Shown piece after piece: positions 282 through 38,459 of a stretch of 58,338 nt of DNA. The stretch is taken from positions 1 through 58,338 of the forward strand of contig JACQDB010000089.1 of the NCBI GenBank assembly GCA_016201275.1. The letters are read 5' to 3'. The DNA is from Acidobacteriota bacterium. Its GTDB lineage: Bacteria > Acidobacteriota > Blastocatellia > UBA7656. Positions within the stretch are counted from its first letter, which is position 1; each line of letters opens with the position of its first letter. The notes beneath the pieces are model-generated. The model saw only the letters and a program-made list of their open reading frames with translations, ran no database searches and was not told the DNA's origin. The translations under genes and the position numbers were made by a program.

Positions 282-2060
282 TTAATCTTTTTTGAAAGGA
301 TTGAGTTTTTTCAAGCCGCCTTTGACTTTCCCGAAGAGGCCGCCTTTCTTCTCTTTTTTCTTGCCCTCTTTGTTTTCGGCTTCCTGGCGCTCGCGGCGCT
401 TCGCCGGTTCTCTGGCTGCTGTAGTTTGGCGGGTTTCGGCACGCCGCGTCTTTTTATTATTGCGCGCCGTCTCCGGCGGAGCGTCTTGATTAATCGTCGC
501 TCCCGGCGCAGGCGTAGGCGTCGTCTCTATGTCCGGCGTGGCATCCGTAGTCACAGGTTTTGCCGGTGCAGGGGCTGGCGTTTGCGTCACTGCTTCATTC
601 TTTGGTGCAGGCAAAGTCGCTGCGTTTTTGGTGGCAACTGCTTGATTATTGTTGCGGGGTGGGGCGTGGCCGGAGCTGGCAATCAAGGCCAGAGGAATGC
701 TCAACAGCGCCAACCCCATGACCGCGACATAGTGCTTCCAAGTAAGTTTATTAATCCACACAGCAACCGGCGATTTTTTTTCCGGCGTGGCGGCGCTCAA
801 TGAATCTGCTGCCGCCAAGTTAGCGGCTTTGGCTGATAAGTTCAGCGCTTGCGCTTGTCCTTGTCGCAACGCGCCGCCTTGATTTTGTTGATCGCAACGA
901 ACCTCTTGAACCGGCGGCGCGCTGACCTTGCGGGTTTCCTCTTCGGCCAAGCGCGTCGCTTTCAAGTGCGCTTGCGGCGACATTGCATCCGCCGATTGCT
1001 GCGCCTCTTCGGCCCGTTTGGTCTCTTTCAAAATCGCTTTTGCAGGATCGGGCAGGCGCGTCTCTTGCAACGTCGCAGTGGCTTTCAAGGTCTCCGTCGG
1101 CAACGGTTCTTCCGGCGTATCGGAAACAAAATCCAGCGTCGTCACCACAGGTTTTTTGGGCTTGGCGACTTTGACCGGCGCGGCTTGTGCTGGGGTTGGT
1201 TGTCGCACGGTCGCCGCCGCCGAAGGATCCATCAAGCGGGCGGTCGCTGCGCCGACGTTCTTCAACATCACGGCGCGGAATTCATCGGCGGTCTGAAATC
1301 GCGCTTCGGGCTTTTTCGCCAGCGCTCGCATAATCACCTGTTCGAGTGCCAGTGGAATCTCTTTGGTAAAGGTTCGCGGCGGCAACGGCGCATCTTCAAC
1401 CTGACGGCGCATTAATTCATATTCGCTGCTGCTGTCAAACGGCACGCGCCCGGTCAGCATTTCATAAAGCAATATTCCCAATGAATAAATATCGGCACGC
1501 GCATCGGTGGCTTCGCCGCGTATCTGTTCGGGCGACATATATTCAATCGTGCCGATGACATTGCCGGTGCGGGTGATACGGTTGCTGCCCAACACGCGAG
1601 CGATGCCGAAATCCATTACCTTGATTAATCCCGCATCCATCAACATCACGTTCGCCGGTTTCACATCGCGGTGAATGATGCCCAGGCGATGCGCGTGCGC
1701 CATGCCGTCGAGGGCTTGCGCGAATAATTGCACGGCTCTTTGATAAGGCATCGCCCCCGACTGTTTAAGCAAACGCTCGAAGGTGTGTCCCTTGACATAC
1801 TCCATCACCATGAAGAAATCGTTGCCCTGGCGCGCAAAGTTATAGAGAGTGGCGATGTTCGGGTGATTGAGTCTGGCCAAGGTGATGGCTTCGGCGCGAA
1901 AGCGTTCGACGATGCTTTGTTGACGCGCCAATTCGGGGCGCAGCATCTTGATGGCGACTTCGCGTTCCAGCATCAGGTCTATGCCTTTGAAGACTTCGCC
2001 CATGCCGCCTTCACCAAGCTTGTCAATGATTTTGTAATTGCCTACGAGTTGCCCAATCAT
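282..2060 (-). CDS. Membrane-anchored Hanks-type Ser/Thr protein kinase
   Basis: 592 aa. The N-terminal kinase domain (about 9-265) has the Gly loop GEGGMGEV at 16-23, the ATP lysine K38, the catalytic HRDVKPAN with D132 and N137, the DFG at 150-152 and an IGTIEYMSPE activation segment. A Thr- and Ala-rich linker (270-430) repeats the pattern LKxT(K/R)xAEE, possible substrate threonines. A single membrane segment lies at about 444-462, and the tail is Pro- and then Lys/Arg-rich with no recognised sensor domain. The start ATG overlaps the TGA stop of the PP2C gene upstream (ATGA, 2057-2060), so kinase and phosphatase are translationally coupled. Known for the family: such pairs set the phosphorylation of FHA partners. 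Inferred: the FHA protease and PEGA kinase in the same run are partners. The very basic C-terminus is unusual and could bind phosphate-rich envelope polymers or nucleic acid, which is speculation. Confidence 0.93.
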   Translation of the reverse strand: MIGQLVGNYKIIDKLGEGGMGEVFKGIDLMLEREVAIKMLRPELARQQSIVERFRAEAITLARLNHPNIATLYNFARQGNDFFMVMEYVKGHTFERLLKQSGAMPYQRAVQLFAQALDGMAHAHRLGIIHRDVKPANVMLMDAGLIKVMDFGIARVLGSNRITRTGNVIGTIEYMSPEQIRGEATDARADIYSLGILLYEMLTGRVPFDSSSEYELMRRQVEDAPLPPRTFTKEIPLALEQVIMRALAKKPEARFQTADEFRAVMLKNVGAATARLMDPSAAATVRQPTPAQAAPVKVAKPKKPVVTTLDFVSDTPEEPLPTETLKATATLQETRLPDPAKAILKETKRAEEAQQSADAMSPQAHLKATRLAEEETRKVSAPPVQEVRCDQQNQGGALRQGQAQALNLSAKAANLAAADSLSAATPEKKSPVAVWINKLTWKHYVAVMGLALLSIPLALIASSGHAPPRNNNQAVATKNAATLPAPKNEAVTQTPAPAPAKPVTTDATPDIETTPTPAPGATINQDAPPETARNNKKTRRAETRQTTAAREPAKRRERQEAENKEGKKKEKKGGLFGKVKGGLKKLNPFKKD

Positions 2061-2986
2061 TGCCAGACCTCCGCTTCGCGAGTTTCCCGCAGGGGTTTCG
2101 GTTCGTCTGCGTTTTTCGCTTCCAGACTGACGATGCCGACCGTGATGTTATCGTGACCACCGCGTTGTTTGGCCAGCGCGATTAATTTTTCGCAAGCCGT
2201 GTGCGGTTCATTGGCCACCAGAATGTTTTTAATTTCGGCGTCTTCCACTAAATCATACAGGCCATCGGAACACAAAAGAAATTGATCGCCGAGGCGCACC
2301 GGCAGCGGCTGTTTCCAAGTGGTGATCTCGACCGTGGCGTGACTGCCCAGCGCACGCAGGATGATGTTTTTATCGGGATGATGCCGCGCCTGTTGGAGAT
2401 TCAACAGACCGCGCCTGACCATCTGCATGACCGCCGAATGGTCTTCGGTCAACAGATAAATGTCATCGTTTCGCACCAGATATAAACGACTGTCGCCAAC
2501 GTGCGCGGCAAACGCTTTGCCGTCTTTCAAGACCAGCGCCGTGCAAGTGGTTCCCATGCCGTACAGCGTGCGGTCTTTGAAGGCTTCGTCAAAGATCGCG
2601 TGATTGGCTTCGAGTATGGCTTTCTGTAAAGCCTCTTGCACATCGCCGGAGGTTTGATAATAGGTTCGCGGGATGACTTCAACGGCGAGGCGGCTGGCGA
2701 TTTCGCCGCCCGAATGGCCGCCCATACCGTCGGCGACGACAAACAGCATTCCTTTGTCGGATAACAGCGCCGGGTCTGCGGGGGTGATATACCTGCCGCT
2801 GTCTTCGTTGATCTGCCGCTGGCAACCTACGTCGGAAAGGAAGCTGGCGGTCACATCATAGACTAGCGGCGGGCTAGGGGCTGGCGCATCATCAACACTG
2901 GCAGCCGCCTGATTGAGTTGAACGTCCGTGGGCTGAGGCTTATTGATTCGGTTGCGCTGTAAAATTTTCTTCAAGAATGTGAACAT
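2057..2986 (-). CDS. PP2C-family (Stp1-type) protein phosphatase
   Basis: 309 aa. It removes phosphate from Ser/Thr residues placed by Hanks kinases and should be cytoplasmic, as no membrane segment is visible. The metal and catalytic motifs of bacterial PP2C are all present: NEDS at 60-63, VADGMGGH at 84-91, GTTCTALVL at about 145-153, VGDSRLY at 163-169, SDGLYD at 240-245 and HDNITV at 278-283. The first ~45 residues are a basic then Pro-rich leader not needed for the fold. The start has a strong AAGGAGG six bases upstream. Its stop overlaps the downstream kinase start by four bases, so the two are made together. The cluster upstream (PEGA kinase, FHA protease) is on the same strand with short gaps. 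Confidence 0.95.
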   Translation of the reverse strand: MFTFLKKILQRNRINKPQPTDVQLNQAAASVDDAPAPSPPLVYDVTASFLSDVGCQRQINEDSGRYITPADPALLSDKGMLFVVADGMGGHSGGEIASRLAVEVIPRTYYQTSGDVQEALQKAILEANHAIFDEAFKDRTLYGMGTTCTALVLKDGKAFAAHVGDSRLYLVRNDDIYLLTEDHSAVMQMVRRGLLNLQQARHHPDKNIILRALGSHATVEITTWKQPLPVRLGDQFLLCSDGLYDLVEDAEIKNILVANEPHTACEKLIALAKQRGGHDNITVGIVSLEAKNADEPKPLRETREAEVWQ

Positions 2987-3070
2987 ATCTGCCTCCTTAT
3001 TCCTCTACTGTTTCTGTGTTTGTTGATAAACCGATAGCGAATTTCATTTGCCCACGACCCATGACACCTT

Positions 3071-3191
3071 GTTGAGAGGCGGTCTGTGACCGCCGTGCGG
3101 CGGTCACAGACCGCCTCTCAACCCAGCGCACATCTCTGCAAGCACGGCGGTCACAAACCGCCTCTCAACCCAGCGCACACCTCTGCAAGCC
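3071..3191. repeat. Perfect 24-bp palindrome with 47-bp tandem duplication
   Basis: 3071-3094 and 3099-3122 are exact reverse complements around a 4-base loop (GTGC), built on GGCGGTCTGTGACCGCC. The right arm plus CCCAGCGCACA.CTCTGCAAGC is then repeated with a 47-bp period (3099 and 3146). It sits between the PEGA-kinase stop and the PP2C start on the minus strand, so it would form a very stable hairpin in a read-through transcript. There is no U-tract, so it is not a classic terminator. Confidence 0.85.
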
Positions 3192-3200
3192 GCTATAAGG

Positions 3201-4478
3201 CTATTCCTTGCGACTCAAGGTGTAGGTGTAATCTTCCTGGTTTTCGTTCAACAAAAAATCTACTTTCTTATCCTCGAACCCATTTCGCTTCAACACCAGA
3301 TTCACTTTTTCGCCGCTCGCTACTTTAATGTCACAAGGGGTCTGACCAACCAGTGCGCCATTTTGATAAACCTCGGCCTTGCCTTCCAGCGCATTGATCC
3401 GCACGGTCTTGAACGATGACTCCGTGTGACTGGCAGAGTTGCCAGTTTTTTTGCTGGCCGCCGTCGCAACATTCCCATTTGTGTTGACGGGCGGATCAAG
3501 GGGGAGATGAGAAACCACATAGGCCAGTACGGCGATGGCAAGCAAGGCCAGGGCTGAGGCCGTAACCAATTGCCAACTGCGCCTTAGCCAATTCAGCGAG
3601 TCACGGCTGCGTGCCTCTGCTTTGTTGGACTGACTATCTTCAGCCGGAGTTTCGTTGCGTTGCAGTGCGCTTAGGTCTTTGAGAATCTCTTCAGTCGTTT
3701 GATAACGCGCCTCTGGGTTCTTCTTTAGACAGCGTTTGATAATGGCTTCCACGGCTTTGGGCAAAGACGGATTGTAAGTGGAAGGCGAGAGATACTCGCT
3801 CTTCATAATGCTGTCGCAGAGTCGCCCCAAGGTCGTGGCGTTAAATGGCACCTGCCCGGAAACCATTTCGTAGAGCAATACGCCCAACGCCCAGATGTCT
3901 GAGCGGGGGTCTGCTCCGCCGCCTTTGATCTGTTCCGGTGAAAGATACTGAAGCGTGCCAATCACATCGCCGGTCGCCGTCAGTTGCGGTGACGCGTCGG
4001 ACTTGGCGATGCCAAAATCCAATAGCTTCACTTCGCCTCTGGAATTGATTTTGATGTTGTTGGATTTGATGTCGCGGTGAACGATGCCATTTTCGTGCAG
4101 GTAGCCGATGGCTTCGACAACGGCGCGAAAAATGTGCAGCGTTTCTTCGAGCGGCAAGACCCCGCAAGCCCGTATGCGTTCATCTAGGGTTTCGCCATCC
4201 ACATACTCCATGACGATGCAGGGCATACCATTGGCTTCTATGAAATCAAAGAGCGTGGCGATTCGCGGGTGCTGTAGGCGCGCTTGAATCTGCGCTTCGT
4301 TATGAAAGCGCTCGATCAAGCGCGGGTTGCGCTGCGCCTGCGTCATGACTTTCACGGCAACCACTCTGCCGAGTTTGGCGTGAACGGCGCGATAGACTTC
4401 GCCCATACCGCCTGCGCCTAAAAAGTCCAGCATCCGATACTCGCCTACTTTTGCGTTGAGTAATTCTCCGTTTCTCAT
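3201..4478 (-). CDS. Hanks-type Ser/Thr kinase with extracytoplasmic PEGA domain
   Basis: 425 aa from the ATG at 4478, which has GGAGAG five bases upstream; an in-frame GTG two codons earlier is less likely. The kinase domain has a Gly loop GAGGMGEV, the lysine in VVAVKVM, HRDIKSNN (catalytic D136) and LLDFG (D154). KSNN replaces the usual KPxN, but the key Lys and Asn remain. One membrane segment lies near 306-325. The C-terminal ~70 residues (VRINALEGKAEVYQNGALVG onward) match a PEGA domain, a small beta domain seen on surface proteins and kinase tails, so it should face the periplasm or wall. It lies 86 bp downstream of the FHA-protease gene on the same strand and is probably co-transcribed with it. 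PEGA may sense an envelope ligand, which is an inference. Confidence 0.93.
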   Translation of the reverse strand: MRNGELLNAKVGEYRMLDFLGAGGMGEVYRAVHAKLGRVVAVKVMTQAQRNPRLIERFHNEAQIQARLQHPRIATLFDFIEANGMPCIVMEYVDGETLDERIRACGVLPLEETLHIFRAVVEAIGYLHENGIVHRDIKSNNIKINSRGEVKLLDFGIAKSDASPQLTATGDVIGTLQYLSPEQIKGGGADPRSDIWALGVLLYEMVSGQVPFNATTLGRLCDSIMKSEYLSPSTYNPSLPKAVEAIIKRCLKKNPEARYQTTEEILKDLSALQRNETPAEDSQSNKAEARSRDSLNWLRRSWQLVTASALALLAIAVLAYVVSHLPLDPPVNTNGNVATAASKKTGNSASHTESSFKTVRINALEGKAEVYQNGALVGQTPCDIKVASGEKVNLVLKRNGFEDKKVDFLLNENQEDYTYTLSRKE

Positions 4479-4564
4479 AACCACTCTCCGATGTCCCTGG
4501 GCGTTTCGATAACAAGAGGCGACTGCTGAAGTGAAAACCAGCAGCCGCCGTTTGGATTCGGATG

Positions 4565-6355
4565 TTAGGGTTTCACAACCGAAGTGACTTTCATCAGTTC
4601 CATTGCATAGCGAATCGGCACAGCGCCCGACACCTGAAAGCCAGCCCCAGGGATGCCGTAGGTGAACAAGGCAATCACTCGGCCCTGATCGTCAAACACC
4701 GGGCCGCCACTGTTACCGTGACCTGTGGTGTTAATATTCAGTTGGTAGATGTCGCCCATGCTGCTGATGATTTGATCCTTACCGCCGACCCCTTCCTGGT
4801 CACGCAGAATTGTCGAGACCACGCCAACGCTGAGTGTGGGATTCGGCAAGTTGCCTTCCTGGGGCTGCGGGTATCCCCCGTTCGCTTTATATTTGACGAT
4901 GACTGTTTGGTTGGCCTCAATCCCTGGATAGCCAATCACAAACGCCGGAGCGCCGGGTTTAATGGTGTCATAGTTGTCATTCAACTCTACAAATTTAAAT
5001 GTCTCAGGAAGGTTGACCTTGATTAGGGAGATGTCGTGACGATCCGAATCGCGGATGAATTGCGCGTCTATACGCGATTCCGTTTTGGGGAATACCACTT
5101 TGAGATAATCACGTCTGCCCTCTACAGACTTATAGCCTAAGTTAGAGCCGCCGAATTGTTTGGTATCGGAAGGAACCCATAAAATAGGATTGTTGAGGGT
5201 TGCGACCTGGCCATCCTGGCCGGTAATCAATTTGCCACTTTCATCAGCCAGCACCCCTGGGAAAGCTTCTTTCGCAAATGAATAATCCACTTTCCAAGGC
5301 GACGCAACGTGCATATTGGTCAGTACAAAACCGCTGCTGGTGACCACAAAACCGGAACCGGTTGCGGCGGAACCTATCGGCAGTCCTGAGTCATTGGGAT
5401 TACTGGTAAGAAAAGGTTCAACCTTTCTTCCTTGATCGGTATTCACAGCTTTATAGACGGCTATCCATTCCTGTTGCGTATTGATAATGCGTTTTTCCTT
5501 GCCATCTTCACCTTTCGTCCGATTCTGTATCCACAAATGCATGAGCGGATTTCCGGTTCGTGTGTTGATCAAATTCCAGCCGATTTCAATTTTCATGGTG
5601 GCGTCGGTGTAGCTACCGGCAATCTCTGCGGGCGTCATACCGGAAGTGCGCTCTTTGACTGCATCCAGGTTGCTGCCCAGAGTCGCCAACTGGCCGCTGG
5701 TGGATTGGTTCTGCTGCGCCAGGTTGTTCTGCAATTTGGCGGCATCCATACGCGATTTATACAGCAGCCCACCGGCTACCAAAGCGACGACGACAATCAA
5801 CGCAGCGACTCCGGCAAACATATATTTGTGGGTTTCGCCTTTGGCTTCCTTCACCATGCGTTCGACGGTGGCTTTGCCGACTTTGGTGCTGTTGGTCATA
5901 GCGCCCATCTGTGCAGCGGCGTTTTGTGGCAACACGCCTTCGCGGGTTGGCGGCACGACGTTGGTAGCGGCGGTGGCGGCGTCTTCACCGGCTATGCGGG
6001 TCGGGCGCAAAGCGTTTTCGGGGCGCGGTTCGATGTCGAATTGAAATTCGGGGCCACCTGCGCCGAATTGAATCAAGTCGCCGGGCATCACTTTGACTGC
6101 GCCGACGATGCGTTGTTTGTTGACGAAAGTGCCATTGCGGCTGCCCAGATCGGTGATGAGGAATTGCCCGTCGGCGGCGGGGTCGCGGACGATCTTGGCG
6201 TGTTGACGCCCGACCAGATCATCCCGGTCCGGGTCATATTTCACGGTTGAAGAAGGGTCACGTCCGATGACCAATTCGTTAAACAGGTTGAGCGGAAATT
6301 CCTCTACTTGATTTGATTTCGAGCCGTTCAGGTGTCTGAGTACAATGCGTTCCAT
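4565..6355 (-). CDS. FHA-domain, single-pass membrane, trypsin-like serine protease
   Basis: 596 aa from the ATG at 6355, chosen because GGAGGAUAGG lies just upstream; the in-frame ATG at 6370 overlaps that ribosome site. The N-terminus (about 1-110) is an FHA domain with GR, GRQHAKI and NGTFVN signature residues, a phospho-threonine reader. After a linker, a membrane segment (about 178-198) leads to a short coiled stretch and an S1/HtrA-like protease domain. The triad is visible as TNMHVA (H349), RHDISL (D441) and GHGNSGGP (S549). No PDZ domain is seen. The topology implied is cytoplasmic FHA and extracytoplasmic protease, so a kinase signal inside could be coupled to proteolysis outside. 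It heads the minus-strand kinase/phosphatase run. The FHA partner is unknown. Confidence 0.9.
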   Translation of the reverse strand: MERIVLRHLNGSKSNQVEEFPLNLFNELVIGRDPSSTVKYDPDRDDLVGRQHAKIVRDPAADGQFLITDLGSRNGTFVNKQRIVGAVKVMPGDLIQFGAGGPEFQFDIEPRPENALRPTRIAGEDAATAATNVVPPTREGVLPQNAAAQMGAMTNSTKVGKATVERMVKEAKGETHKYMFAGVAALIVVVALVAGGLLYKSRMDAAKLQNNLAQQNQSTSGQLATLGSNLDAVKERTSGMTPAEIAGSYTDATMKIEIGWNLINTRTGNPLMHLWIQNRTKGEDGKEKRIINTQQEWIAVYKAVNTDQGRKVEPFLTSNPNDSGLPIGSAATGSGFVVTSSGFVLTNMHVASPWKVDYSFAKEAFPGVLADESGKLITGQDGQVATLNNPILWVPSDTKQFGGSNLGYKSVEGRRDYLKVVFPKTESRIDAQFIRDSDRHDISLIKVNLPETFKFVELNDNYDTIKPGAPAFVIGYPGIEANQTVIVKYKANGGYPQPQEGNLPNPTLSVGVVSTILRDQEGVGGKDQIISSMGDIYQLNINTTGHGNSGGPVFDDQGRVIALFTYGIPGAGFQVSGAVPIRYAMELMKVTSVVKP

Positions 6356-6410: not shown

Positions 6411-6666
6411 GGATTGGGTGAAAGTTCTGAAGCCGATGCCAAGCCCGTGTGGTTTCACTCTCTTTTCGCCTTCACCCAGTAACGCGAGAAGGGTTCAACG
6501 ATTGGCTCAAATTATTTTTTCTTTTTTCAATTTTTTTTCTGAGCCGTTTTTCGCCGCGTTCCCGCGTTATCAGGTGCAGGCGAAAAGCCCTGATTGATTG
6601 ACAGCGCACAGGGGAAGGCATATGCTCACCGGCAACGTGCGAACTCTCACAAACAGGAGCAATCCG

Positions 6667-7233
6667 ATGTCGTCAACTTCTAAGAATGTTACGCAATTGC
6701 TGGCCGATTGGGGCGGCGGCGACAAGCAGGCGCTGGAACACTTGATGCCGCTGGTGTATCAGGAATTGCATCGGCTCGCTGATTATTACCTGCGCCGCGA
6801 ACGCCAGGGACACACCCTACAGGCAACCGCTTTAATCAATGAAGCCTATTTGAAAATCATTGATCAACGCAGTGTCAACTGGCAGAACCGCGCTCATTTT
6901 TTCGGCGTCGCGGCGCAGATGATGCGGCGCATACTGGTTGACCATGCGCGCAGTCACCTGTACGCCAAACGCGGCGGCGGGGCGCAGAAACTGACCCTTG
7001 ATGAAGCCTTGGCGTTGCCGCAACAGGAACGCGATGTGGATTTGGTGGCGCTCGATGACGCGCTGAAAACGCTGGAAGCGATGGACGCCCAGCAGAGTCG
7101 CATTATTGAACTGCGCTTTTTCGGCGGCCTGACCATAGAAGAGACCGCCGAAGTGTTGAGCCTCTCTCCGGCCACCGTCAAACGCGAATGGCATTGGGCA
7201 AAAGCCTGGCTGTACAACGAAATTAAAAAATGA
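6667..7233 (+). CDS. ECF-type RNA polymerase sigma factor (TIGR02999-like)
   Basis: 188 aa from the ATG at 6667, which has AGGAG seven bases upstream; the frame is open to an earlier ATG at 6598 with a poor site. Region 2 is seen in LVYQELHRLADYYLRRE and region 4 in the stretch containing IIELRFFGGLTIEETAEVL and SPATVKREWHWAKAWL. This pattern belongs to the Sigma70_ECF/TIGR02999 group that is expanded in Acidobacteria and Planctomycetes and is often next to a Ser/Thr kinase. That is the case here, with the kinase gene 150 bp downstream. No anti-sigma factor is adjacent, so control through phosphorylation by the neighbouring kinase is the likely mode, by analogy. The gap to the kinase is a heptamer-repeat hairpin. 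Confidence 0.93.
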   Translation: MSSTSKNVTQLLADWGGGDKQALEHLMPLVYQELHRLADYYLRRERQGHTLQATALINEAYLKIIDQRSVNWQNRAHFFGVAAQMMRRILVDHARSHLYAKRGGGAQKLTLDEALALPQQERDVDLVALDDALKTLEAMDAQQSRIIELRFFGGLTIEETAEVLSLSPATVKREWHWAKAWLYNEIKK

Positions 7234-7234
7234 A

Positions 7235-7379
7235 TTAGTCCTCCGTCCTCCGTCCTTAGTCCTTAGCAAGGTTTTGAACCGACGGCTAAAACCGCAGAGT
7301 CCGTACCTTGAAACCGGCTCCTGTAGCCGGTTTCAAGGCTTTGCTGAAACTAAGGACTAAGGATGGAGGACTAGGGACT
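7235..7379. repeat. Heptamer-type intergenic hairpin between sigma factor and kinase
   Basis: The left arm (7235-7266), made of TTAGTCC/TCCTCCG units, pairs with the right arm (7350-7379) of CTAAGGA/GGACTAG units. An inner exact 13-bp hairpin (CCTTGAAACCGGC and its complement, about 7305-7337) sits inside. The element fills the whole gap from the sigma stop (7233) to five bases before the kinase ATG (7384) and supplies the GGAGG upstream of that ATG. It is one of six such hairpins in the window. Confidence 0.75.
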
Positions 7380-7383
7380 GCAC

Positions 7384-10014
7384 ATGGAAAATTACCATCG
7401 CGTTAAAGAGTTGTTTCAAACGGCGATTGATTTATCGGGCGAAGCGCGGGCGGTATTTTTGGCCGAAGCCTGCGCCGGAGATACGACCTTGCTGATGGCG
7501 GTCGAGCGTTTGCTTGCCGCCAGCGATGAAGCCGAAAGTTTTATCGAAGAACCGGCTTTTAACCTCGCTGATAATTTCATCACGCAAAAAGATACTGCCG
7601 CCGAACCTGTAGAAGGCAGCTTCATCGGCCATTATCGCGTCATTCGGGAAATCGCTCACGGCGGCATGGGCGCGGTCTATCTGGCGATGCGCGCCGATGA
7701 CCAGTACAAAAAGCGCGTCGCCATCAAAGTCATACGCGGCGGTGCCAACAATGATTATTTACGTCGTCGCTTTCTGAGCGAACGCCAGATACTGGCAAGC
7801 CTCGATCATCCCTACATCGCCAAGCTGCTTGATGGCGGCACCACTGAAGACGGCTCGCCGTATCTGGTGATGGATTACATCGAAGGCGAAGCCATAGACG
7901 AATACTGCGACAATCACAAATTATCAACAGCCGAGCGCCTGCAACTGTTTCGTCAGGTCTGCGCGGCGGTGCATTACGCGCATCAAAATCTGGTCATACA
8001 TCGTGACCTCAAACCGGGCAACATACTGGTCACCGCCGATGGCACGCCGCGCCTGCTGGATTTCGGCATCGCCAAATTGCTCAATCCTGAGCTTGCCGGA
8101 CAGACGCTGGATATGACGGCGGGGCCTTTGGGGCCGATGACGCCGGAATACGCCAGCCCCGAACAGGTGCGCGGCGAAAGCCTGACGACTTCGAGCGACA
8201 TTTATTCGCTGGGCGTCGTGCTGTATGAATTGTTGACTGGCCATCGCCCTTATAAATTCGGCAGTCGTGTGCCGCACGTCATCGCGCAAATCATCTGCGA
8301 ACAGGAACCGGAAAGACCCAGCACGGTTATCAATCGCATCGAAACCAATCCTTACGGGATAAGCGACACGGACATCACCATCTCGCCGGAAATCGTCAGC
8401 CGCACCCGCGAAGGCCAGATTGAAAAGTTGCGCCGTCGTTTGCGCGGCGACCTCGACAACATCGTGTTGATGGCGATGCGAAAAGAGCCGCAGCGCCGCT
8501 ATGCTTCGGTTGAACAATTCGCCGAAGACTTGCGCCGCCATCTCTATGGATTGCCCTGCATCGCTCGCAAGGCTACGCTTTCGTATCGAACATCGAAGTT
8601 CATCAAGCGTAACAAAGTAGCGGTCGCCGCCGGTGTGTTAATCGCCTTGAGCTTGATTGGCGGCGTCATCACGACGTTGTGGGAAGCGCACAACGCCAGT
8701 TTGCAGAAGGCCAAAGCCGAACAGCGCTTCAACGATGTGCGTGCGCTGGCCAATGCCTTTATGTTCGATATACATGACAAAATCGAAACCCTGCCGGGTT
8801 CCACGCCAGCGCGTCAGTTACTGGTCAACAAAGCCCTGCAATATCTGGATAAGCTGGCGCGAGAAGCGGGCGGGGATACGACTTTGCAAAGGGAACTGGC
8901 GACCGCCTATATGAAGGTCGGCGATATTCAAGGCAACCCGGTGGTGGCCAATCTTGGTGATATGAATGGAGCGCTGGCGAGTTATCAAAAGGCTCTGCAA
9001 ATTCGGCAGGCGCTGCCAACGGCTTCGGCCCATCAGCTTGATGCCGAAATCGAATTGGCGAATAACTATGATCGCGTCGGTGATATGGTTTTGATTGATC
9101 ACGATTTGAATGCGACGACCGAGAATTATCAACAGGCGCTTGCCATACGCGAACGACTGGCTGCACAACAACCGAATAACACGCAGGTTCGTTTTGATTT
9201 GTCTTTGAGTTATTCCAACCTTGGCGACGTGCTTTCAGAAGACGGCAAGCCGCAGGCCGCTTTAGAGCAATACAGCAAAGCTCGCACGATGCGCGAACCG
9301 CTGTTGGCGCAAGAACCGCTGAACGCGACATATCGCCGCAGCATAGCGATTCTCTATCAACGCATCGCCACCAATATGTATTATCTGGGCGATAAAGCCG
9401 GAGCCATTGCCACGTCGCGCCAATCGCTTGTGAAGATGGAAGCGTTGGCGAAGGATTATCCGCAAAACGCCAAAGCGCAACGCGAAGTGGCGTTCGCTTA
9501 CAATAATCTGGGCGATTTGCTGTGGTATAACGATGACTTGAAGGACGCTATGGAAAATTATCAAATCGGCTTGCGTATGCGTGAAGCCTTGTTGCAGACT
9601 GACCCGACCAATATGCAGGCGCAACGCGATGTCGCCATCAGCTATGGCAATTATGGTTATACGCTGGCGCAGAAGGGCGATGAAAAAGGTCTGGAGCTGT
9701 ACCGCAGGAGTGTAGAAATTACGGAAGGTTTGTTGACCGTCAATCCCGATATGGCCAATGCGATGCGCGATGTCGCCGTCACCTACAGCTATTTCGGCGA
9801 GGTTTACGGACTGCTGGCGGCGCGTAAAGAATTGCCCGTAGCCAAGCGCCTCGCCTATTATGAACAGGCGCTGGCCTACAATGAGCGCAGTATCAAAATC
9901 TGGGTGGAGATGCGCGACCGTGGCATATTGAAAAGCCGCGACCGCAACACGGCGGATAAAATCACTGCCAGCCTCGCCGCTTATCACAGCGAGATGGAAA
10001 AATTGAAGAAGTGA
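7384..10014 (+). CDS. Ser/Thr protein kinase with C-terminal TPR repeats
   Basis: 876 aa. A ~75-residue N-terminal helical region precedes the kinase domain (about 84-389), with K115, HRDLKPGN (D208, N213) and LLDFG (D226). The Gly loop reads AHGGMGAV, with the first Gly replaced by Ala-His, which occurs in active kinases of this group. A membrane segment lies at 411-432. The rest, about 450-870, is a chain of TPR-type helical repeats (patterns such as LATAYMKVGDIQG, LSLSYSNLGDVLS, VAFAYNNLGDLLW and VAVTYSYFGEVYG), predicted outside the membrane or as a docking arm. The layout matches kinases that pair with TIGR02999 ECF sigma factors, and the sigma gene is directly upstream. Inferred role: the TPR end senses a signal and the kinase modifies the sigma factor. 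Confidence 0.94.
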   Translation: MENYHRVKELFQTAIDLSGEARAVFLAEACAGDTTLLMAVERLLAASDEAESFIEEPAFNLADNFITQKDTAAEPVEGSFIGHYRVIREIAHGGMGAVYLAMRADDQYKKRVAIKVIRGGANNDYLRRRFLSERQILASLDHPYIAKLLDGGTTEDGSPYLVMDYIEGEAIDEYCDNHKLSTAERLQLFRQVCAAVHYAHQNLVIHRDLKPGNILVTADGTPRLLDFGIAKLLNPELAGQTLDMTAGPLGPMTPEYASPEQVRGESLTTSSDIYSLGVVLYELLTGHRPYKFGSRVPHVIAQIICEQEPERPSTVINRIETNPYGISDTDITISPEIVSRTREGQIEKLRRRLRGDLDNIVLMAMRKEPQRRYASVEQFAEDLRRHLYGLPCIARKATLSYRTSKFIKRNKVAVAAGVLIALSLIGGVITTLWEAHNASLQKAKAEQRFNDVRALANAFMFDIHDKIETLPGSTPARQLLVNKALQYLDKLAREAGGDTTLQRELATAYMKVGDIQGNPVVANLGDMNGALASYQKALQIRQALPTASAHQLDAEIELANNYDRVGDMVLIDHDLNATTENYQQALAIRERLAAQQPNNTQVRFDLSLSYSNLGDVLSEDGKPQAALEQYSKARTMREPLLAQEPLNATYRRSIAILYQRIATNMYYLGDKAGAIATSRQSLVKMEALAKDYPQNAKAQREVAFAYNNLGDLLWYNDDLKDAMENYQIGLRMREALLQTDPTNMQAQRDVAISYGNYGYTLAQKGDEKGLELYRRSVEITEGLLTVNPDMANAMRDVAVTYSYFGEVYGLLAARKELPVAKRLAYYEQALAYNERSIKIWVEMRDRGILKSRDRNTADKITASLAAYHSEMEKLKK

Positions 10015-28130: not shown

Positions 28131-28241
28131 CTTGTGGATGAAATCAGCTGCAAAACGTGAGTGAGTTTCCCAGGCCCTGTACGGGCGATCACCGCAGGGT
28201 CGCCCGTACAGGATTGCACTTGATTTACTCCACCATCCTTA
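28131..28241. repeat. Copy 3 of the TAAGGATTGTGG palindromic family
   Basis: On the minus strand it starts TAAGGATGGTGGA, has CCTGTACGGGCGACC paired with a complementary GATCGCCCGTACAGG, and ends TTTCATCCACAAG. Inverted ends TGTGGA..AAATCA..TGCAA are visible on both sides. TAA (28239-28241) is the stop codon of the BACON protease gene. Confidence 0.7.
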
Positions 28242-31200
28242 CGGACGTGCCGCCTGATTGACCGTAAAGCTTAATCCGGCAACGGTGATGGTGCCGCTGC
28301 GCGAGGCGCGATTTGGATTGCTGGCGACTTGATAAATAACCAGACCGCTGCCCGTGCCGCTCGCCCCGGAAGAGATTGTCAACCAGTTGACATTACTGAC
28401 CGCCGTCCACGGGCAACCGGCGGTCGCCGTAACATTCACCGAGCCGCTGATCGCGCCAAAACTTACATTTTTAGCGGTCGGCGAAATTGCATACGAACAA
28501 GTGAGTGTCGCTGCCGCCTGCGTCACCGTGAAACTCTGTCCAGCAATCGTCAGCGTACCGCTGCGCGCATTGGTTGAAGCATTGGCCGTGACCGCATAAT
28601 TTACCGTGCCGTTGCCTGTGCCACTCGCGCCCACAGAGATTGTCAACCAGTTGACATTGCTGGTCGCCGTCCAGTTGCAGCCTGCATCTGCTGTGACCGT
28701 CACGGTATTGCTGCCGCCACTTGCGGCAAACGCTTGGCTGGTTGGCGAAATCGCATAGCTGCACCCTGGCGTCGCTGCCGCCTGCGTCACCGTGAAGGTC
28801 TGTCCGGCAATCGTCAGCGTACCGCTGCGCGCACTGGTTGAAGCATTGGCCGTGACCGCATAATTTACCGTGCCGTTGCCTGTGCCACTCGCGCCCGCAG
28901 AGATTGTCAACCAGTTGGCATTACTGATCGCTGTCCAATTGCAACTCGCAGGCGCGGTAACATTGACGTTGCCGAGGCCGCTGCTGGCGGCAAAGGATTG
29001 ATTGGTGGGCGCAATGGCATAGGTGCAAACCGTTCCCGCGCCAGCTTGATTAAGGGTGTGCGGCAGTCCGCCGATAAATATCGTAGCGCTGCGCGCCGCG
29101 CCGGCATTGGCCTGCACCGTGTAGTTTAATTTTTTGGTTCCGGTGCTGCTGCCATTGGCGGTGATGGTCACCCAGCCCGGCACATTCGTCGTTGACCAGG
29201 CGCAATTAATCGGCGCGTCAACCCGCACCGTCAACGTGCCGCCGCTGATGGGAAACGAGGCGCTGGCCGGAGTCAGCAGCGTCACACAACTGGAGGCCGC
29301 CTGTGTCACCGTGAAAGTTTGTCCGGCAATCGTCATCGTCCCACTGCGCGTGTTGGCGTTGGGATTGTTAGCCACCGCATAATTGACCGTGCCGTTGCCC
29401 GTGCCGCTCGCGCCGGAAGTAATGCTGATCCAGCCATCGTTACTGGTCGCTGTCCAGTTGCAACCCACAGGCGAAGTCACCGCGACGCTGCTGGAACCGC
29501 CGCCTGCGGCAAACGCCTGGCTGGTTGGCGAAAGCGCATAACTGCACGCCGGTTGCGCGCCATCCTGATTGACAGTGAAGGTTTGCCCGGCAATCGTCAC
29601 GGTGCCTGAGCGCGCACTGGTCGAAGGGTTGGCGGCGACCGCATAATTCACTGTGCCGTTGCCTGTGCCGCTCGCGCCGGAAGTCACCGTTATCCAACCA
29701 ACATTGCTGATTGCCGTCCAGGTGCAACCGGCTTGCGTGGTGACGTTGACGCTGCCGCTGCCGCCTGCTGCCACGATATTTTGACTGGTCGGGGTGATTG
29801 AGTACGTGCAGGAGACCGCGCCCGCTTGATTGACAGTAAAGGTTTGGCCGCCGATGTTGAGCGTGCCAGAGCGCGCCCCTGCGGGGTTGGCGGCGACGGT
29901 GAAACTGGCGGTGCCATTGCCGGAAGCGCCTGCCGCAGAGGTGACGCTGATCCACGAAGCGTTGCTGAAAACGCCCCAACTGCACGCCGATGTAGTGGTC
30001 ACATTGACCGCGCCGTTGCCGCCTGCCGCCGCAAACGCTTGGCTGGTTTGATTGAGCGCAAAGCTACAGACCGTCTGATTTGCCAACGCATTCGCTACGT
30101 TGATTCTGCCGCCTGAGACAAGCAATCCGGCGAAGGCCGCCAGGGGGTCAACCGTGTTGATCAAGCTCGCTTTCAAAGAGGCGGGTGACAGATTGGGATT
30201 CAAACCAACCAACAGCGCCGCCGCTCCCGCGACGTGCGGCGTGGCCATAGAAGTGCCGCTGATGGTCGCATAAGTATTATTGGGAAAGGTCGAGATAATG
30301 CTGGAACCGGGCGCGGCTACATCCACGCTGGTCGCTCCCCAGTTGGAAAATCCTGAGCGCGTATCGGTGCTGGTCGAAGAAGCAACGGCGATAATGCTCG
30401 GCGAATTGTAGCTTGCCGGGTAGCTCGGATTGACATCTATATCGCGGTTGTCGTTGCCCGCCGCAAAGACATTCAAGACCCCTGCGTTGCCTGCCGCATC
30501 AATGGCGTCCTTGAGCGCCTGGTCATAACTTCCGGCTTCCGGCGCGCCGCCCCAACTGTTGCTGGTGACGCGAATATTGATGCCGCGATTCTTCATCATG
30601 GTGACGTAATTGAACGCCGCTATGACGGTGGCCGCTGTCGAATTGCCGTCGCTTGCGTGCGTTTTCAAAGCCATTAACTTGACGTTCCAGTTGACCCCGA
30701 CAACGCCCAGGCTGTTGTTGCCAACTGCGCCGATGGTTCCGGTGGTGTGAGTGCCGTGATTGTTATCATCGAGCGGGTTGGCATCGTGGTTGATGAAATC
30801 GTAGCCGTAATAATCATCCACGAAACCGTTGCCATCATCGTCTATGCCGTTGTTAGGAATTTCGCCGGGATTGTGCCACATATTGGCGGCAAGGTCTTGA
30901 TGATTGTAATCCACGCCGGTGTCTATGTCGGCAACCACTACCGCCGCATTGCCTGTGGTGGTATCCCATGCCGTCGGCATATGAATTTTCGTCATGCCAT
31001 ACATCGAGCCGTATTGCGGGTCGTTGGGAAAGGTATCAAAAATGTGATAGGTAAAATTGGGCTGCGCCAGCACGCAGTCACGCAGCTTGCGATACTGCGC
31101 CACGCCCTCTTCGACGCTGAGATCGGCGGGCAATTGAACCAACTGCCAGCCGATGGAATCGAAATTGGTGAGGACACGAGCGCCGGTCTGAGTGTGCGCG

Positions 31201-31361
31201 GCCTGCGTCTGTGGCGCGTAAGGGCCGTCTTGAAATTTGACCAGTAATTGCCCTTCGATAAAGTTTCGCGCCGTGGCACCGCTTTGCGCGAAGGCTGGAG
31301 CAAAGACTTGAAACCATGCCAGAGTCAATAAAATCGTCAATAAAAACAAGGTCTTTTTCAT
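28239..31361 (-). CDS. Exported subtilisin-like (S8) protease with seven BACON domains
   Basis: 1040 aa from the ATG at 31361; an in-frame start 21 codons earlier would put a non-signal leader before the signal peptide [16 protein letters not shown]. After a propeptide-like region comes an S8 domain with the triad in [17 protein letters not shown] (Asp), [12 protein letters not shown] (His) and [13 protein letters not shown] (Ser), plus oxyanion Asn in FAAGNDNRD. The C-terminal half is seven ~85-residue BACON modules, each with CxW(T/S) and a closing FTVNQA or FTVTQA. BACON domains are thought to bind carbohydrate or mucin-like material, so the protease may be held on a surface polymer. Neighbouring modules are nearly identical in DNA. 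The stop codon is inside a repeat. Confidence 0.95.
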
Positions 31362-31695
31362 ATTGATATTCTCTCTAAGGGGGGTATGCGAACCGATGGG
31401 GAGCCAGCCAAAGCCGTAAGCCAATCTATCATGGAAAGCGGTAGCCAGCCAGCGTTGATTTTTTCAGCCAGCGGCTTCCGCTAGGTTGGCAGAGCAAGGG
31501 GTTGGGAAAACATCGTCGGAGAAGATTTCACCGGCCTGTATGAATTGACACAGCAGCGCCGCAACTTCGCCTTGCCGAGGCCGAAGCCGATACCCATTAC
31601 GTTGGGCGCGCCTGTGCGTTATGACAAAGCCGCCTGCAATAGGCGCAGCGGCGGCTTTGCAACAGCACGTCGCTTGTCTGTAGGGCATCAAGAGT

Positions 31696-34117: not shown

Positions 34118-35836
34118 TTACGCCGTGCGTTTGACAATCATCACCGTCATATCGTCAACGGTCGCCGCTGTGCCGACGAAGCGCGCTAAGGCCTCGTCAA
34201 TGCGGTCGCGTATGCCTGAAGCGGAACGATGCAGATGGTTCTTCACCACTTCAATCAAGCGCTCTTCGCCGAACTCTTCATCTTCGAGATTCACCGATTC
34301 GGTAATGCCATCGCTGTAAATCACCAGCACATCGCCCGCCTGGAACTGGACTTTGTCTTCGTCGTAAGTGATCTCCGGCATCAAGCCTACCGGCAAGCCG
34401 CCTTTATCGAGTTTGACCATTTCGCCGTTGGCGCGCATCAACAGCGGCGTGTTGTGACCGCCGTTGGAATAGGTCAACTCGCCGGTCGTCGGCTCAAGCA
34501 CGGAATAGAACAAGGTCAGATATTTATTCGATGGCGAATTTTCATAGATGTAGCAATTGATTTCGCACATCACTTCGCTGATCGAAGCGTTGGTCTGTGC
34601 CTGGGCGCGCACCGCCGCATGAACCGAAGACATCAACAGTGCCGCGCCCGTGCCTTTGCCCGACACATCGCCCACGGCCAGCGCCAGTTTGCCATCGCGG
34701 CGCGGAATGTAATCGTAATAATCGCCGCCGATTTCCCGACACGGAAACGAGACCGCCGTCATATCCCAGCCTGCGAGTTTGGGTGGCGACACCGGTTGCA
34801 AGCGCATCTGAATTTCCGAAGCGACCTTCAACTCTTCTTCCATGCGGCGTTTTTCCAGGCGTTCTTCGAGCAAGCGTTCGTGTTCAATTTTAATCGAAGC
34901 GACCGAAGCAATCGTCGTCAACACTTTCAGGTCTTCTTCTTTGAAGCGATTGTGAAACGGATTGTCCACATAGACCATGCCAAAGGTCTCTTCGCCGGAG
35001 GCCAGCGGCACCGCCATCACCGAGCGTATGTTACTCAGCACCACCGATTGTTGTGCTTGAAAGCGCGGGTCGTGCATGGCGTCAGAGGTGAGAATCGGCA
35101 CGCCTTCTTCCAGCACTTTGTTGGTGATGGAACGCGAGATTTGAATCTGCGAGGGCGATTGCCCGCCGTCATCGAGGGTCGCGCCACGGGCAATTTTGCA
35201 ATTCAATTCATTGCCTTCTTTCAAAAACAGAAAGCCGCGCTCGGCGTCCGTGGCCTGTAGAATTAAATCAATCGTCATCTTCAAGGTATCTTCCAGCGAG
35301 GTGCGCGGCAGCAGGGCGATGCCGACTTGCGAGACGATGCTCAACAGGTCGCGGCCCGGCGATTGCGGCGCGAGCATGGTTTTGACGCCGGTTGACGAGC
35401 GCACTTCGCCGGCGATGGAGCCGGATTGAATGGACGAGATGAGTTCGGAGGTCGAGCGCGCCGCCATGCGTGTGGTAATGGTATCGGCAGGCAGATTGCC
35501 GCTTAAATCCGAAAGATAGACGGTCGCGCCGGAGATCGCCGATTGTTCGCCTGCCGCGTATTCGATTTCGGTTTCGCCTATGCGCACGATGTCGCCGACG
35601 CGAATCCGCAACGCGCCGGAAACTTTTTGACCGTTGAGATAAGTGCCATTGGCGCTGCCATTGTCAACCAGGAGCATCTGTTCATTTTCGCGCCGCAATT
35701 CGGCGTGCAGGCGCGAGGCGAAGGGGTCGCTCAAGCAGATGTCGTTGCGCGACGAGCGCCCGATGGTTAAACGGGTTTTGTCCATCTTGATCGTTGATGG
35801 CTCGTAATCTTTGGGGCGTACAATAAAGGTGTGCAT
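34118..35836 (-). CDS. FHA-GAF-SpoIIE (PP2C-type) phosphatase
   Basis: 572 aa. An N-terminal FHA domain (about 1-100: LTIGRSSRNDICLSDPFASR, NGSANGTYLNG) is followed by a GAF domain (about 165-325) and a SpoIIE/RsbU-type phosphatase domain (345-570) with EIGGDYYDYI, LALAVGDVSGKGTGAALLMS and VLVIYSDGITESVN. SpoIIE/RsbU phosphatases usually act on anti-anti-sigma proteins; with FHA it should dock on phospho-threonine proteins. No STAS protein or anti-sigma kinase is adjacent, so its substrate is open. A short helix (LEERLEKRRMEEELKVASEI) links GAF and phosphatase, typical of signal-transmitting coiled coils. It is the last signalling gene of the minus-strand run. Confidence 0.93.
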   Translation of the reverse strand: MHTFIVRPKDYEPSTIKMDKTRLTIGRSSRNDICLSDPFASRLHAELRRENEQMLLVDNGSANGTYLNGQKVSGALRIRVGDIVRIGETEIEYAAGEQSAISGATVYLSDLSGNLPADTITTRMAARSTSELISSIQSGSIAGEVRSSTGVKTMLAPQSPGRDLLSIVSQVGIALLPRTSLEDTLKMTIDLILQATDAERGFLFLKEGNELNCKIARGATLDDGGQSPSQIQISRSITNKVLEEGVPILTSDAMHDPRFQAQQSVVLSNIRSVMAVPLASGEETFGMVYVDNPFHNRFKEEDLKVLTTIASVASIKIEHERLLEERLEKRRMEEELKVASEIQMRLQPVSPPKLAGWDMTAVSFPCREIGGDYYDYIPRRDGKLALAVGDVSGKGTGAALLMSSVHAAVRAQAQTNASISEVMCEINCYIYENSPSNKYLTLFYSVLEPTTGELTYSNGGHNTPLLMRANGEMVKLDKGGLPVGLMPEITYDEDKVQFQAGDVLVIYSDGITESVNLEDEEFGEERLIEVVKNHLHRSASGIRDRIDEALARFVGTAATVDDMTVMIVKRTA

Positions 35837-35967
35837 AATGATTCAAAAAAATAAAAGGCAACAGGTTCTAAAAAGCGATGCGTAAAGGCGGAGAGCCGTC
35901 TGGCTTGAACTGCGCTAGGTCAATTCTACGGCACTTCACTTTTGCCTTTTGCCTTTTGCCTGGCGGT

Positions 35968-36705
35968 TCACCGCGACATCACGACAATCGTACCGGCCAG
36001 TTTGTCGTGCCATCCTTGCTGGCGTGGGTCCCACAACATCCACAAAAAGCCTAGAAAAAATACCAGCATAGACAACGGATAGCCGATCAGATGACGAATC
36101 GCCGCGCCCCACATGGTGAAGCGTTTGCCGTCGGCGCGAGTGATTTGAATGCCGAGGATTCGCATCCCTGCGCTCTGACCGTTCAAGCCTGCCAGCACCA
36201 CGAAATTGAGAATGAGCAGCAACAGCGTTAAGCCCGCGACGATGAACAAATCCTGATTGGAATCCACCACTGAACGCCTGCCGATGGCCGAAATGGCAAA
36301 GGTGAAAACCATCAGCGCAATCAGGGTGATCAAAAAATCGAACATCCACGCGCCGTAGCGCAAACCGAATCCCGCCTGTTCATACACTCCTATGAAGGCG
36401 TGGGTCGCTGGCGCATACTTACGTGCGGAGGCCGGAATCATGGGCGTCGGTTTGACTGCCGGACGTGCTGGGGTCGTCAAGCGCGCCGCTTCGTTAGACG
36501 CTGTACCAGCGCTGCCGTTGCGTTCCATTGCCGGTGCGCGTTCGGCAGTCGCGGCGCGATTCATCTTTTCCACCACTTCATGAACCGGCTTGGCGGCGGA
36601 TGCGGATTGCGCCTCGACGACATTGCGACGACCTTTGCCACATTGCGGACAAAACTTTGACCGCTCACTGTATTGCTTGCCACAGTATGGACAGAACTTT
36701 GACAT
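35968..36705 (-). CDS. Zinc-ribbon RDD-domain membrane protein
   Basis: 245 aa from the ATG at 36705. An N-terminal zinc ribbon (FCPYCGKQYSERSKFCPQCG) is followed by a Ala/Pro-rich linker and an RDD domain: GFGLRYGAWMFDFLITLIAL, a second hydrophobic helix (FIVAGLTLLLLILNFVVLAG), GMRILGIQI and a last segment YPLSMLVFFLGFLWMLWD. RDD proteins have conserved Arg and Asp residues in membrane helices; some transport ions, but most are uncharacterised. It lies between the FHA-kinase gene and the FHA-phosphatase gene in the same direction, so it may be a membrane partner of the system. The gap to the kinase gene is filled by a hairpin repeat. Confidence 0.88.
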   Translation of the reverse strand: MSKFCPYCGKQYSERSKFCPQCGKGRRNVVEAQSASAAKPVHEVVEKMNRAATAERAPAMERNGSAGTASNEAARLTTPARPAVKPTPMIPASARKYAPATHAFIGVYEQAGFGLRYGAWMFDFLITLIALMVFTFAISAIGRRSVVDSNQDLFIVAGLTLLLLILNFVVLAGLNGQSAGMRILGIQITRADGKRFTMWGAAIRHLIGYPLSMLVFFLGFLWMLWDPRQQGWHDKLAGTIVVMSR

Positions 36706-36716
36706 AATCAATAGTC

Positions 36717-36805
36717 TATAGTCATTAGTCCCTAGTCATTAGTCAAGGGCAGGCAAGCGCCTGGCTCGCCAACGCAGGACTAAGAACTAGGGACTAATGG
36801 CTATA
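36717..36805. repeat. Heptamer-type hairpin spanning the kinase/RDD gap
   Basis: TATAGTCATTAGTCCCTAGT (36717-36736) pairs with 36786-36805 with one mismatch. The right arm runs over the kinase stop codon (36801-36803), and the left arm ends 12 bases before the RDD start. Inner GC-rich stem near GGCAAGCGCCTGGCTCGCC. It would be transcribed within the operon. Confidence 0.75.
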
Positions 36806-38279
36806 CCAGCATAAAGCGCAACAAGGTGCCGCCGAGTTTCAATTCATCGCCTGCGGTCAGCACGCGCGGCGATTTGGTGTTGAGGCGAATCGAGCCGCCA
36901 TTGACCGAGTTGACCACCGTGCCGTTGACCGATCCCAAATCTTCAACCAGAAATTGCTCACCGGAGCGATAGATGCGGGCGTGGCGACGCGAGACTTTGG
37001 TTTCCGGGTCAAACATGGTCAGGTCAATTTCCGGGAAGATGCCGGTGTGCGGGTCTTGCCGTCCCAATAACACGCTGTCTTTATCAATCAAAAAGGGCTT
37101 GACCATGTCCGAGGTTCCCATGACGACCAGTTGTGCAGAGACGCGCATACCGGCGGCACCGCCGGAATTGGGTGCGGCGCTGCCCACCATAGGTTGACGC
37201 GCTCCGCAATGGGCGCAGAAAACATCATCAATGCCGATCTTGTCGCCGCAATGGCCGCAAAACACCCAGCCCGAAGCCGGTGCGGGAGCGGCGCTGCCCG
37301 GCGTGCCGACGCCTTTGGAATCTTTCACCTTGGGCGCGCCGTTGGCGTTGTTTGGCACTTCGCGTTTTGGTGGGTCATTGGTCGAGCGCCCTGCTTCTAC
37401 GGGTTTTACGGCGCTCAAATTGGCGCTGTGATCCTGTAGGTCGCGCATAAATTGCAGCGCCGATTCAGGGCGGTCTTCCGGCGTATGCGCTACCGATGTG
37501 ACCAACAAGTGTTCCATCTCCGGCGAGATGTTGGGATTGAGTTGGCGCGGCAAAGGGTTCTTGCTGAAATCGAAAATCAGCAGCGGATTATCCTGCGGGT
37601 CGGAACCCGTCATCATATGAAACATGGTCGCGCCAAGTGAATAAATATCGGAGCGCGGTTCCACTTTTCCGGCGAACAATTCGGGCGGCGCATAGCCCAT
37701 CGTGCCGATGGCGGTGACGCCTTTTTCCGTAGGCCGGACGATGCGGGCGATGCCAAAATCCACCAGCATGACGCGCCCCGTTTTGTCATCAATCATGAGG
37801 TTGGCGGGTTTGAGGTCGCGGTAAATAATCGGCGGTTTCTGCGAATGTATGTAGTGCAGCACATCGGCAATTTGAATCGCCCATTTGGTCACTGTCGCTT
37901 CATCCACAGTGCCGCCGCGCACGCGCATCTGTTCGGCCAGATCGCCGCCGCCAATCCAGCGCATCACCAGGTAGTACCTGCCGCCTTCGATGAAATAATC
38001 GAAGACCGTAGGAATGGACGGGTGATCGAGTTGCGCCAGCACTTCGGCTTCGCGCTTGAAATCTTCGACCGCTTTGGCGCGTTGCGATTGATCGGCGAAT
38101 AATTCGATCATCTCTTTGACGGCGCACAAGCGGTCAGCGAGGCGTTTATCGCGGGCTTGATAGACGCTGCCCATACCGCCGCCGCCGACGCGCCGCACGA
38201 TGGAGTAGCGGTCAAGCAACAGCGTTCCCGGCTCTAGCTGAACCCCAGCCGATTTTCTTGATTTTTTCTGGTCAGACAT
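36801..38279 (-). CDS. Ser/Thr kinase with zinc ribbon and C-terminal FHA domain
   Basis: 492 aa, no membrane segment. The kinase domain (about 20-285) has VGGGGMGSVY, ATP lysine K55, IIYRDLKPAN (Tyr for the first His of HRD, D145 kept) and LVDFG (D164). A disordered region leads to a zinc ribbon (FCGHCGDKIGIDDVFCAHCG) and then an FHA domain: LLGRQDPHTGIFPEIDL, SRRHARIYRSGEQF, GSVNGTVVN. YRD in place of HRD is common in this kinase group. The FHA signature TGIFPEIDL also occurs in the FHA protein upstream (SGIFPDVDL), so the two may read similar phosphothreonines. Soluble kinase with its own reader domain, possibly self-docking after autophosphorylation. Confidence 0.93.
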   Translation of the reverse strand: MSDQKKSRKSAGVQLEPGTLLLDRYSIVRRVGGGGMGSVYQARDKRLADRLCAVKEMIELFADQSQRAKAVEDFKREAEVLAQLDHPSIPTVFDYFIEGGRYYLVMRWIGGGDLAEQMRVRGGTVDEATVTKWAIQIADVLHYIHSQKPPIIYRDLKPANLMIDDKTGRVMLVDFGIARIVRPTEKGVTAIGTMGYAPPELFAGKVEPRSDIYSLGATMFHMMTGSDPQDNPLLIFDFSKNPLPRQLNPNISPEMEHLLVTSVAHTPEDRPESALQFMRDLQDHSANLSAVKPVEAGRSTNDPPKREVPNNANGAPKVKDSKGVGTPGSAAPAPASGWVFCGHCGDKIGIDDVFCAHCGARQPMVGSAAPNSGGAAGMRVSAQLVVMGTSDMVKPFLIDKDSVLLGRQDPHTGIFPEIDLTMFDPETKVSRRHARIYRSGEQFLVEDLGSVNGTVVNSVNGGSIRLNTKSPRVLTAGDELKLGGTLLRFMLV

Positions 38280-38459
38280 ATGGGCTACGGATTTCGATAG
38301 ATGCGCTTGCTCGGATCAAGTAGAGGCGCGCTCCGCTGCTCGGGTACGCTCACCCGGCTCCAGAGTTGGTTCTCTTCCTGATCATCGCGGCTGCGGTGGA
38401 ACCCTCGGTACAAATCTGCTCTCCCGATCCTCGAATCTGGTGATGCAAACTCGCTTTGC

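Follow-up and report, generated by a model that had tools for sequence, protein, structure and literature searches.

The stretch of DNA analysed here, referred to as the window, comprises 58,338 nucleotides and is the whole of contig C150 in the 6.8 Mb genome G000 of an Acidobacteriota bacterium belonging to the class Blastocatellia. We are interested in a cassette of four co-directional genes on its minus strand, which are read from 6355 to 282 and encode a protease with an FHA domain, a transmembrane helix and a trypsin-like domain, a membrane Ser/Thr kinase (K1), a PP2C phosphatase, and a second membrane Ser/Thr kinase (K2). The operon reaches the contig end immediately past K2. The cassette contains the following features, for which pLDDT denotes the predicted local distance difference test score.

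4565-6355, minus strand: FHA-transmembrane-trypsin (HtrA-like) protease, P0001; likely start ATG at 6355, with the open reading frame opening at 6370
6062-6271, minus strand: FHA domain of the protease, residues 34-103 (Pfam PF00498, E=7e-16)
5942-6001, minus strand: disordered, predicted cytoplasmic linker of the protease with T124-R125 (5996-6001) and T142-R143 (5942-5947); AlphaFold2 pLDDT <50
5759-5821, minus strand: single transmembrane helix of the protease (AlphaFold2, hydropathy)
4667-5359, minus strand: trypsin-like domain with the triad H354/D446/S554 and without PDZ (Pfam, alignment, fold match)
3201-4478, minus strand: K1, membrane Ser/Thr kinase with a C-terminal PEGA domain (PEGA 3246-3407, transmembrane helix 3510-3572)
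3078-3115, no strand assigned: two facing copies of a palindrome resembling repetitive extragenic palindromic elements, in the gap between K1 and PP2C (sequence repeat)
2057-2986, minus strand: PP2C phosphatase, assigned to the Stp1/IreP family (NF033484, 245 bits against a cut-off of 230)
282-2060, minus strand: K2, membrane Ser/Thr kinase (kinase domain 1290-2036, transmembrane helix 669-731)
930-1061, minus strand: juxtamembrane T-R motifs of K2, QETRL (1056-1061), KATRL (951-956) and EETRK (930-935)

Gene calls and Pfam domains place the four genes where an earlier note on this DNA had put them, and the four-base overlap that it described between PP2C and K2 is an ATGA. Its end coordinate of 6355 is also a better protease start than 6370: we put the start at the ATG there because it is preceded by GGAGG and followed by the conserved N-terminus MERIVL. 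The open reading frame of K1 spans 3201-4484, with the ATG at 4478 as the probable start.

The protease matches the Pfam families FHA (E=7e-16) and Trypsin_2 (E=2.6e-16). The catalytic residues His354, Asp446 and Ser554 and the oxyanion Gly552 are invariant in all 26 orthologs, as are R37, H57 and N79 of the FHA pocket. The AlphaFold2 model comprises an FHA sandwich at residues 8-114 (pLDDT ~82), which is followed by a disordered linker, a short conserved helix (GKATVER), a transmembrane helix at residues 181-204, a coil, and the trypsin fold. Hydropathy in the 26 orthologs likewise indicates one transmembrane helix between the FHA and trypsin domains. Counts of lysine and arginine are higher on the FHA side of this helix in 21 of the 26 orthologs, tied in four and lower in one (means of 4.6 vs 2.7), from which the FHA domain is predicted to lie inside the cell and the trypsin domain outside. 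This predicted topology agrees with the previous proposal that the FHA domain and a complete His-Asp-Ser triad reside on opposite sides of the membrane. The trypsin part matches the folds of HtrA1/HtrA2, M. tuberculosis HtrA and DegS at Z ~18. Pfam finds no PDZ domain in the protease, and the chain stops after the protease domain. Its scores lie below the family cut-offs both for HtrA/Do (TIGR02037, 46 vs 416 bits) and for GarA/OdhI (NF041660, 27.6 vs 200 bits), and it carries a transmembrane helix and a protease domain besides the FHA domain. At two other loci (L066, 5102-7324; L070, 7378-9573), we observed by eye the same FHA subtype and a transmembrane helix with an apparent NHL-like β-propeller in place of the protease; the linkers of these proteins lack the T-R motif described below, and no kinase of the type found in the cassette is adjacent.

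Both kinases match Pfam Pkinase (E<1e-56), and their catalytic motifs are conserved in their alignments. Neither K1 nor K2 has a Pfam match to PASTA repeats, and against the PASTA-kinase model NF033483 they score 324 and 362 bits, respectively, under the cut-off of 450. At 22.8 bits, the PEGA domain of K1 scores above its cut-off of 20.8. The phosphatase matches PP2C_2 (E=2.4e-16) and, judged by its score above the NF033484 cut-off, does belong to the Stp1/IreP family. The outer tails of K2 are long, disordered-looking and variable, with two recurrent kinds of outer end in the window (282-360) and the orthologs, either basic and amphipathic (G[IF]F.KK...) or terminating in ...ALDQ/LLDQ. The basic C-terminus is not conserved, other endings (ALDQ, TGDC) being found in most orthologs. 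The suggestion that the PEGA domain and the basic kinase tail supply the outside signal is not supported in general, since most K2 orthologs end otherwise and the PEGA kinase is absent from seven loci. Because K1 is missing there, K1 with its PEGA domain is a dispensable accessory. The home genome encodes 39 kinases and holds two close K2 paralogs on another contig, C24.

Near-complete homologs of the protease were found in about 28 of the 162 genomes of the class Blastocatellia, in two more genomes of a 396-genome sample of the phylum, and at four loci (L010-L013) outside the class matches. Of the 29 loci compared, one of them being the window, 25 have PP2C and K2 downstream of the protease and co-directional with it. 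The four exceptions are a contig end (L061), a PP2C remnant (L062), a rearranged locus with K2 upstream (L017) and a degraded locus (L065), and seven loci of this comparison lack K1. The distant genome G488 keeps the protease and K2 alone, side by side. The linkage, for which a search in other genomes had been proposed, is conserved across many of them. Protease, PP2C and K2 have correlated pairwise distances (r=0.82-0.85), and K2 is detected at E<=1e-75 in 10 of 10 genomes with the protease and in one of 20 without (Fisher p=3.7e-7, a value that overstates independence because of kinship, for genomes picked by protease presence or absence). Several protease-less genomes share a family or genus with carriers (G159 and G160; several of genus g40), and G149 is the only genome with a K2-like kinase that was found without the protease. 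Gain and loss of the protease and of K2 nonetheless clearly coincide. Chance clustering of the four genes was rejected on the conserved order and co-occurrence.

The same data bear on the possibility of an ordinary envelope quality-control HtrA protease that is merely a chance neighbour of a kinase/phosphatase operon, which we consider highly improbable. The HtrA fold at Z ~18 would suit it, whereas the fusion of FHA to the protease, the absence of PDZ, the gene order conserved in most loci and the joint presence or absence with K2 do not; such a protease would also be expected to occur without any K2 or PP2C, and no such case was found among the ten genomes tested. Kinases, PP2C and ECF (extracytoplasmic function) sigma factor genes recur as neighbours of the cassette, which, together with its conservation within the class, unlike patchy defence islands, makes a control module of a defence or secretion system (resembling the PD-T4-6 kinase or threonine phosphorylation of the type VI secretion system) exceedingly improbable, though no search aimed at type VI secretion genes was made. 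Although PADLOC kinase models score both kinases and many models match, these matches appear to reflect generic kinase homology, on which ground we rejected a defence system, and the match to a defence-protease model is weak.

The cytoplasmic linkers of most K2s share with that of the protease a short motif, [KR]xTR[LIVM], which is nearly absent elsewhere. Among the proteins of the retrieved loci, the strict motif is carried by 24 of 26 proteases and 19 of 31 K2-class kinases, as opposed to 3 of 351 other proteins, none of 18 K1s, none of 23 PP2Cs and one of 22 other kinases. The protease linkers are otherwise variable, yet they hold two T-R sites, [KR][PA]TR[ILMV] and P[PA]TR (T124 and T142 in the window), whose threonines are near-invariant in the alignment (25/26 and 26/26). 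In K2 linkers the number of T-R copies ranges from one to four; most have the form K[EAS]TR[LIV], and their positions cannot be aligned. TR dipeptides number 52 in the protease linkers (10.7 expected) and 39 in the K2 linkers (7.2 expected), values reached by none of 2000 shuffles in either case, and one in the K1 linkers (1.7 expected). The shuffles, the K1 control and the 351 background proteins led us to reject a composition artefact. We also rejected a general trait of the kinases of the home genome, as the motif is repeated in K2 alone among the 29 readable ones. Neither K2 paralog on C24 has the motif, and the strict form was not found in the linkers of the K2-like kinase of the protease-less genome G149. 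On these sequence patterns, [KR]xTR[LIVM] is the best candidate for a phosphosite or an FHA-docking site. The activation-loop threonine of K2 is followed by arginine in 18 of 20 orthologs (3 of 19 for K1), which is only a hint because arginine is common at this position in bacterial kinases. A single kinase-FHA-FHA protein at locus L069 directly joins a kinase to the FHA type of the protease.

A fifth gene, encoding an exported protein, directly follows K2 in 17 loci of the 29-locus comparison. L059 and the degraded locus L065 have it farther from K2, and in the home genome it resides on C24 between the two K2 paralogs. The protein consists of a signal peptide and one or two helical repeats of ~55 residues, followed by TPR and a PH/GRAM-like part or by another domain. 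No family scored above threshold in Pfam or NCBIfam, and Foldseek returned no fold at E<=0.001 from a weak model (pLDDT 61). In L012 and G407, the outer end of K2 is fused to a C-terminal domain of the second of these two kinds, which supports a periplasmic location of the K2 tail and a partnership between K2 and the fifth protein. The earlier note, correct in its observation of the four genes, had missed this gene and the fusion as well as the T-R motif.

The fusion is also relevant to feedback proteolysis, in which the FHA domain would anchor the protease to active kinases and the periplasmic tails of K1 and K2 or the fifth protein would be trimmed, with kinase signalling as the output. The protease and the kinase tails are encoded together and predicted to face the same side, the K2 tails have the long, variable and disordered-looking character that such trimming would suit, and two loci carry the domain of the fifth protein on K2. 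However, we saw no conserved cleavage site in the kinase tails, and within the cassette it is the protease that is invariant, K1 being optional. We regard feedback proteolysis as unlikely.

We favour, with moderate confidence, a vertically maintained transmembrane phospho-signalling unit that would control an HtrA-like periplasmic protease. K2 would autophosphorylate and would phosphorylate the threonines of [KR]xTR[LIVM] both in the juxtamembrane linker of K2 itself and in the protease linker (T124, T142); the outer tail of K2 probably makes contact with the fifth, exported protein. The FHA domain may dock in trans on phospho-threonines of K2, thereby recruiting and clustering the protease, or alternatively in cis on those of its own linker in a GarA-like manner. 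Docking would move the single-pass protein or alter its oligomeric state and thereby change the trypsin activity across the membrane, so that recruitment, clustering or release of the protease would alter periplasmic proteolysis. PP2C would erase the phospho-threonines and reset the state, and K1 with its PEGA domain would be an accessory input, present in most loci but not in all. What we infer here is that the motif is phosphorylated and that the FHA domain docks on it, as well as in which direction the protease is controlled and which substrates it has. More tentatively, and short of an expectation, we propose a dedicated inside-out system, in which K2 would write and PP2C erase a repeated KxTRL code read by the FHA domain, the kinase directly gating the PDZ-less HtrA-like periplasmic protease with the exported repeat protein as a kinase partner or substrate.

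Several observations weigh against the phospho-signalling unit. The serine of the SxxH element, which usually contacts phosphate in FHA domains, is replaced by glycine in 19 of 26 orthologs, that of the window (Gly54) among them. The AlphaFold2 model is weak around the protease active site, in two relatives from the class this FHA type sits on an apparent β-propeller and not on a protease, and the relatedness of the sequences inflates the motif and co-occurrence statistics. The motif is missing from the K2 linkers of G001 and G007 (one family), L013 and G407 but retained in the corresponding proteases; docking on K2 can therefore not be a universal feature, and the protease copies of the motif are more fundamental than those of K2. 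Some of these points would suit a reading in which the T-R motifs are phosphate-independent docking or membrane-proximal elements, the FHA domain binds an unrelated phosphoprotein, and the linkage reflects only co-expression of envelope genes. Such a reading accommodates the glycine in most orthologs, the K2s without the motif, and the location of the first protease motif only ~10 residues from the FHA domain. It is nevertheless rather unlikely, given the near-invariant threonines within otherwise variable linkers, the same motif in K2 and not in K1, and the T-R context also present in the K2 activation loop.

The components are ordinary, namely an FHA domain, an Stp-type PP2C, PknB-like kinases, and an HtrA fold. 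By sequence comparison, the cassette appears to work like known Ser/Thr protein kinase-FHA systems, yet it falls outside the GarA/OdhI, PASTA-kinase and HtrA families. The actinobacterial envelope cluster comprises fhaA-fhaB-pstP-rodA-pbpA-pknA-pknB. Like the cassette, it is an operon in which membrane Ser/Thr protein kinases are combined with a Stp/PstP-type PP2C and with FHA proteins and whose output concerns the envelope; unlike there, the FHA protein here is the transmembrane protease itself, the kinases bear PEGA or disordered tails instead of PASTA, and RodA/PBP are not part of the cassette. In known membrane-anchored HtrA proteases such as DegS, the switch is provided by misfolded-protein peptides at the outer face of the membrane. 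The protease shares with DegS/HtrA (Do), including M. tuberculosis HtrA (Rv1223), the membrane-anchored trypsin fold, here predicted to face the periplasm (Z ~18), but has an N-terminal, predicted cytosolic FHA domain in place of PDZ, which suggests control from inside and not by periplasmic misfolded-protein peptides. The juxtamembrane domain of PknB recruits FhaA (PMC6180346), and a similar recruitment of an FHA protein by a kinase juxtamembrane segment is proposed here from the motif. PknG docks GarA via a disordered autophosphorylated segment with several threonine sites (PMC8546545); the K2 linker is a candidate for such a disordered multi-threonine segment, and the sites beside the FHA domain of the protease may likewise allow self-binding. 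GarA/OdhI are, in contrast, soluble metabolic regulators, whereas for the cassette we propose proteolysis outside the cytoplasm as the output, and its motif reads [KR]xTR[LIVM] and not ETTS. StkP of S. pneumoniae recruits partners through a phosphorylated disordered juxtamembrane domain (PMC12077195), but it is a PASTA kinase, and no FHA-protease partner is described for it there. Within the open-access library searched, neither an FHA-gated transmembrane protease nor this cassette nor Blastocatellia kinases turned out to be described, in agreement with the previous statement that this had not been seen described as a defined system.

As for the surroundings of the cassette, an ECF sigma factor and a TPR-tailed kinase are encoded divergently at 6598-10014 (plus strand), and a gene of this sigma factor cluster lies near the cassette in 12 of 33 loci. 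The palindrome at 3078-3115 (GGCGGTCTGTGACCGCC) is dispersed, with 138 matches in the genome at <=1 mismatch and none for the reversed control. At 34118-39335 (minus strand), we observed a second phospho-signalling locus for FHA-GAF-SpoIIE phosphatase, zinc ribbon-RDD, kinase-zinc ribbon-FHA and zinc ribbon-FHA proteins, and at 28239-31424 (minus strand) a subtilase carrying a run of BACON repeats.

If the proposed unit is correct, the protease would be wired through its FHA domain to kinases and switched from the cytoplasm, unlike DegS. The shared T-R motif provides specific residues that are open to testing, and the cassette gives a tractable function to kinases that these bacteria possess in large numbers and that have apparently been little studied in them.

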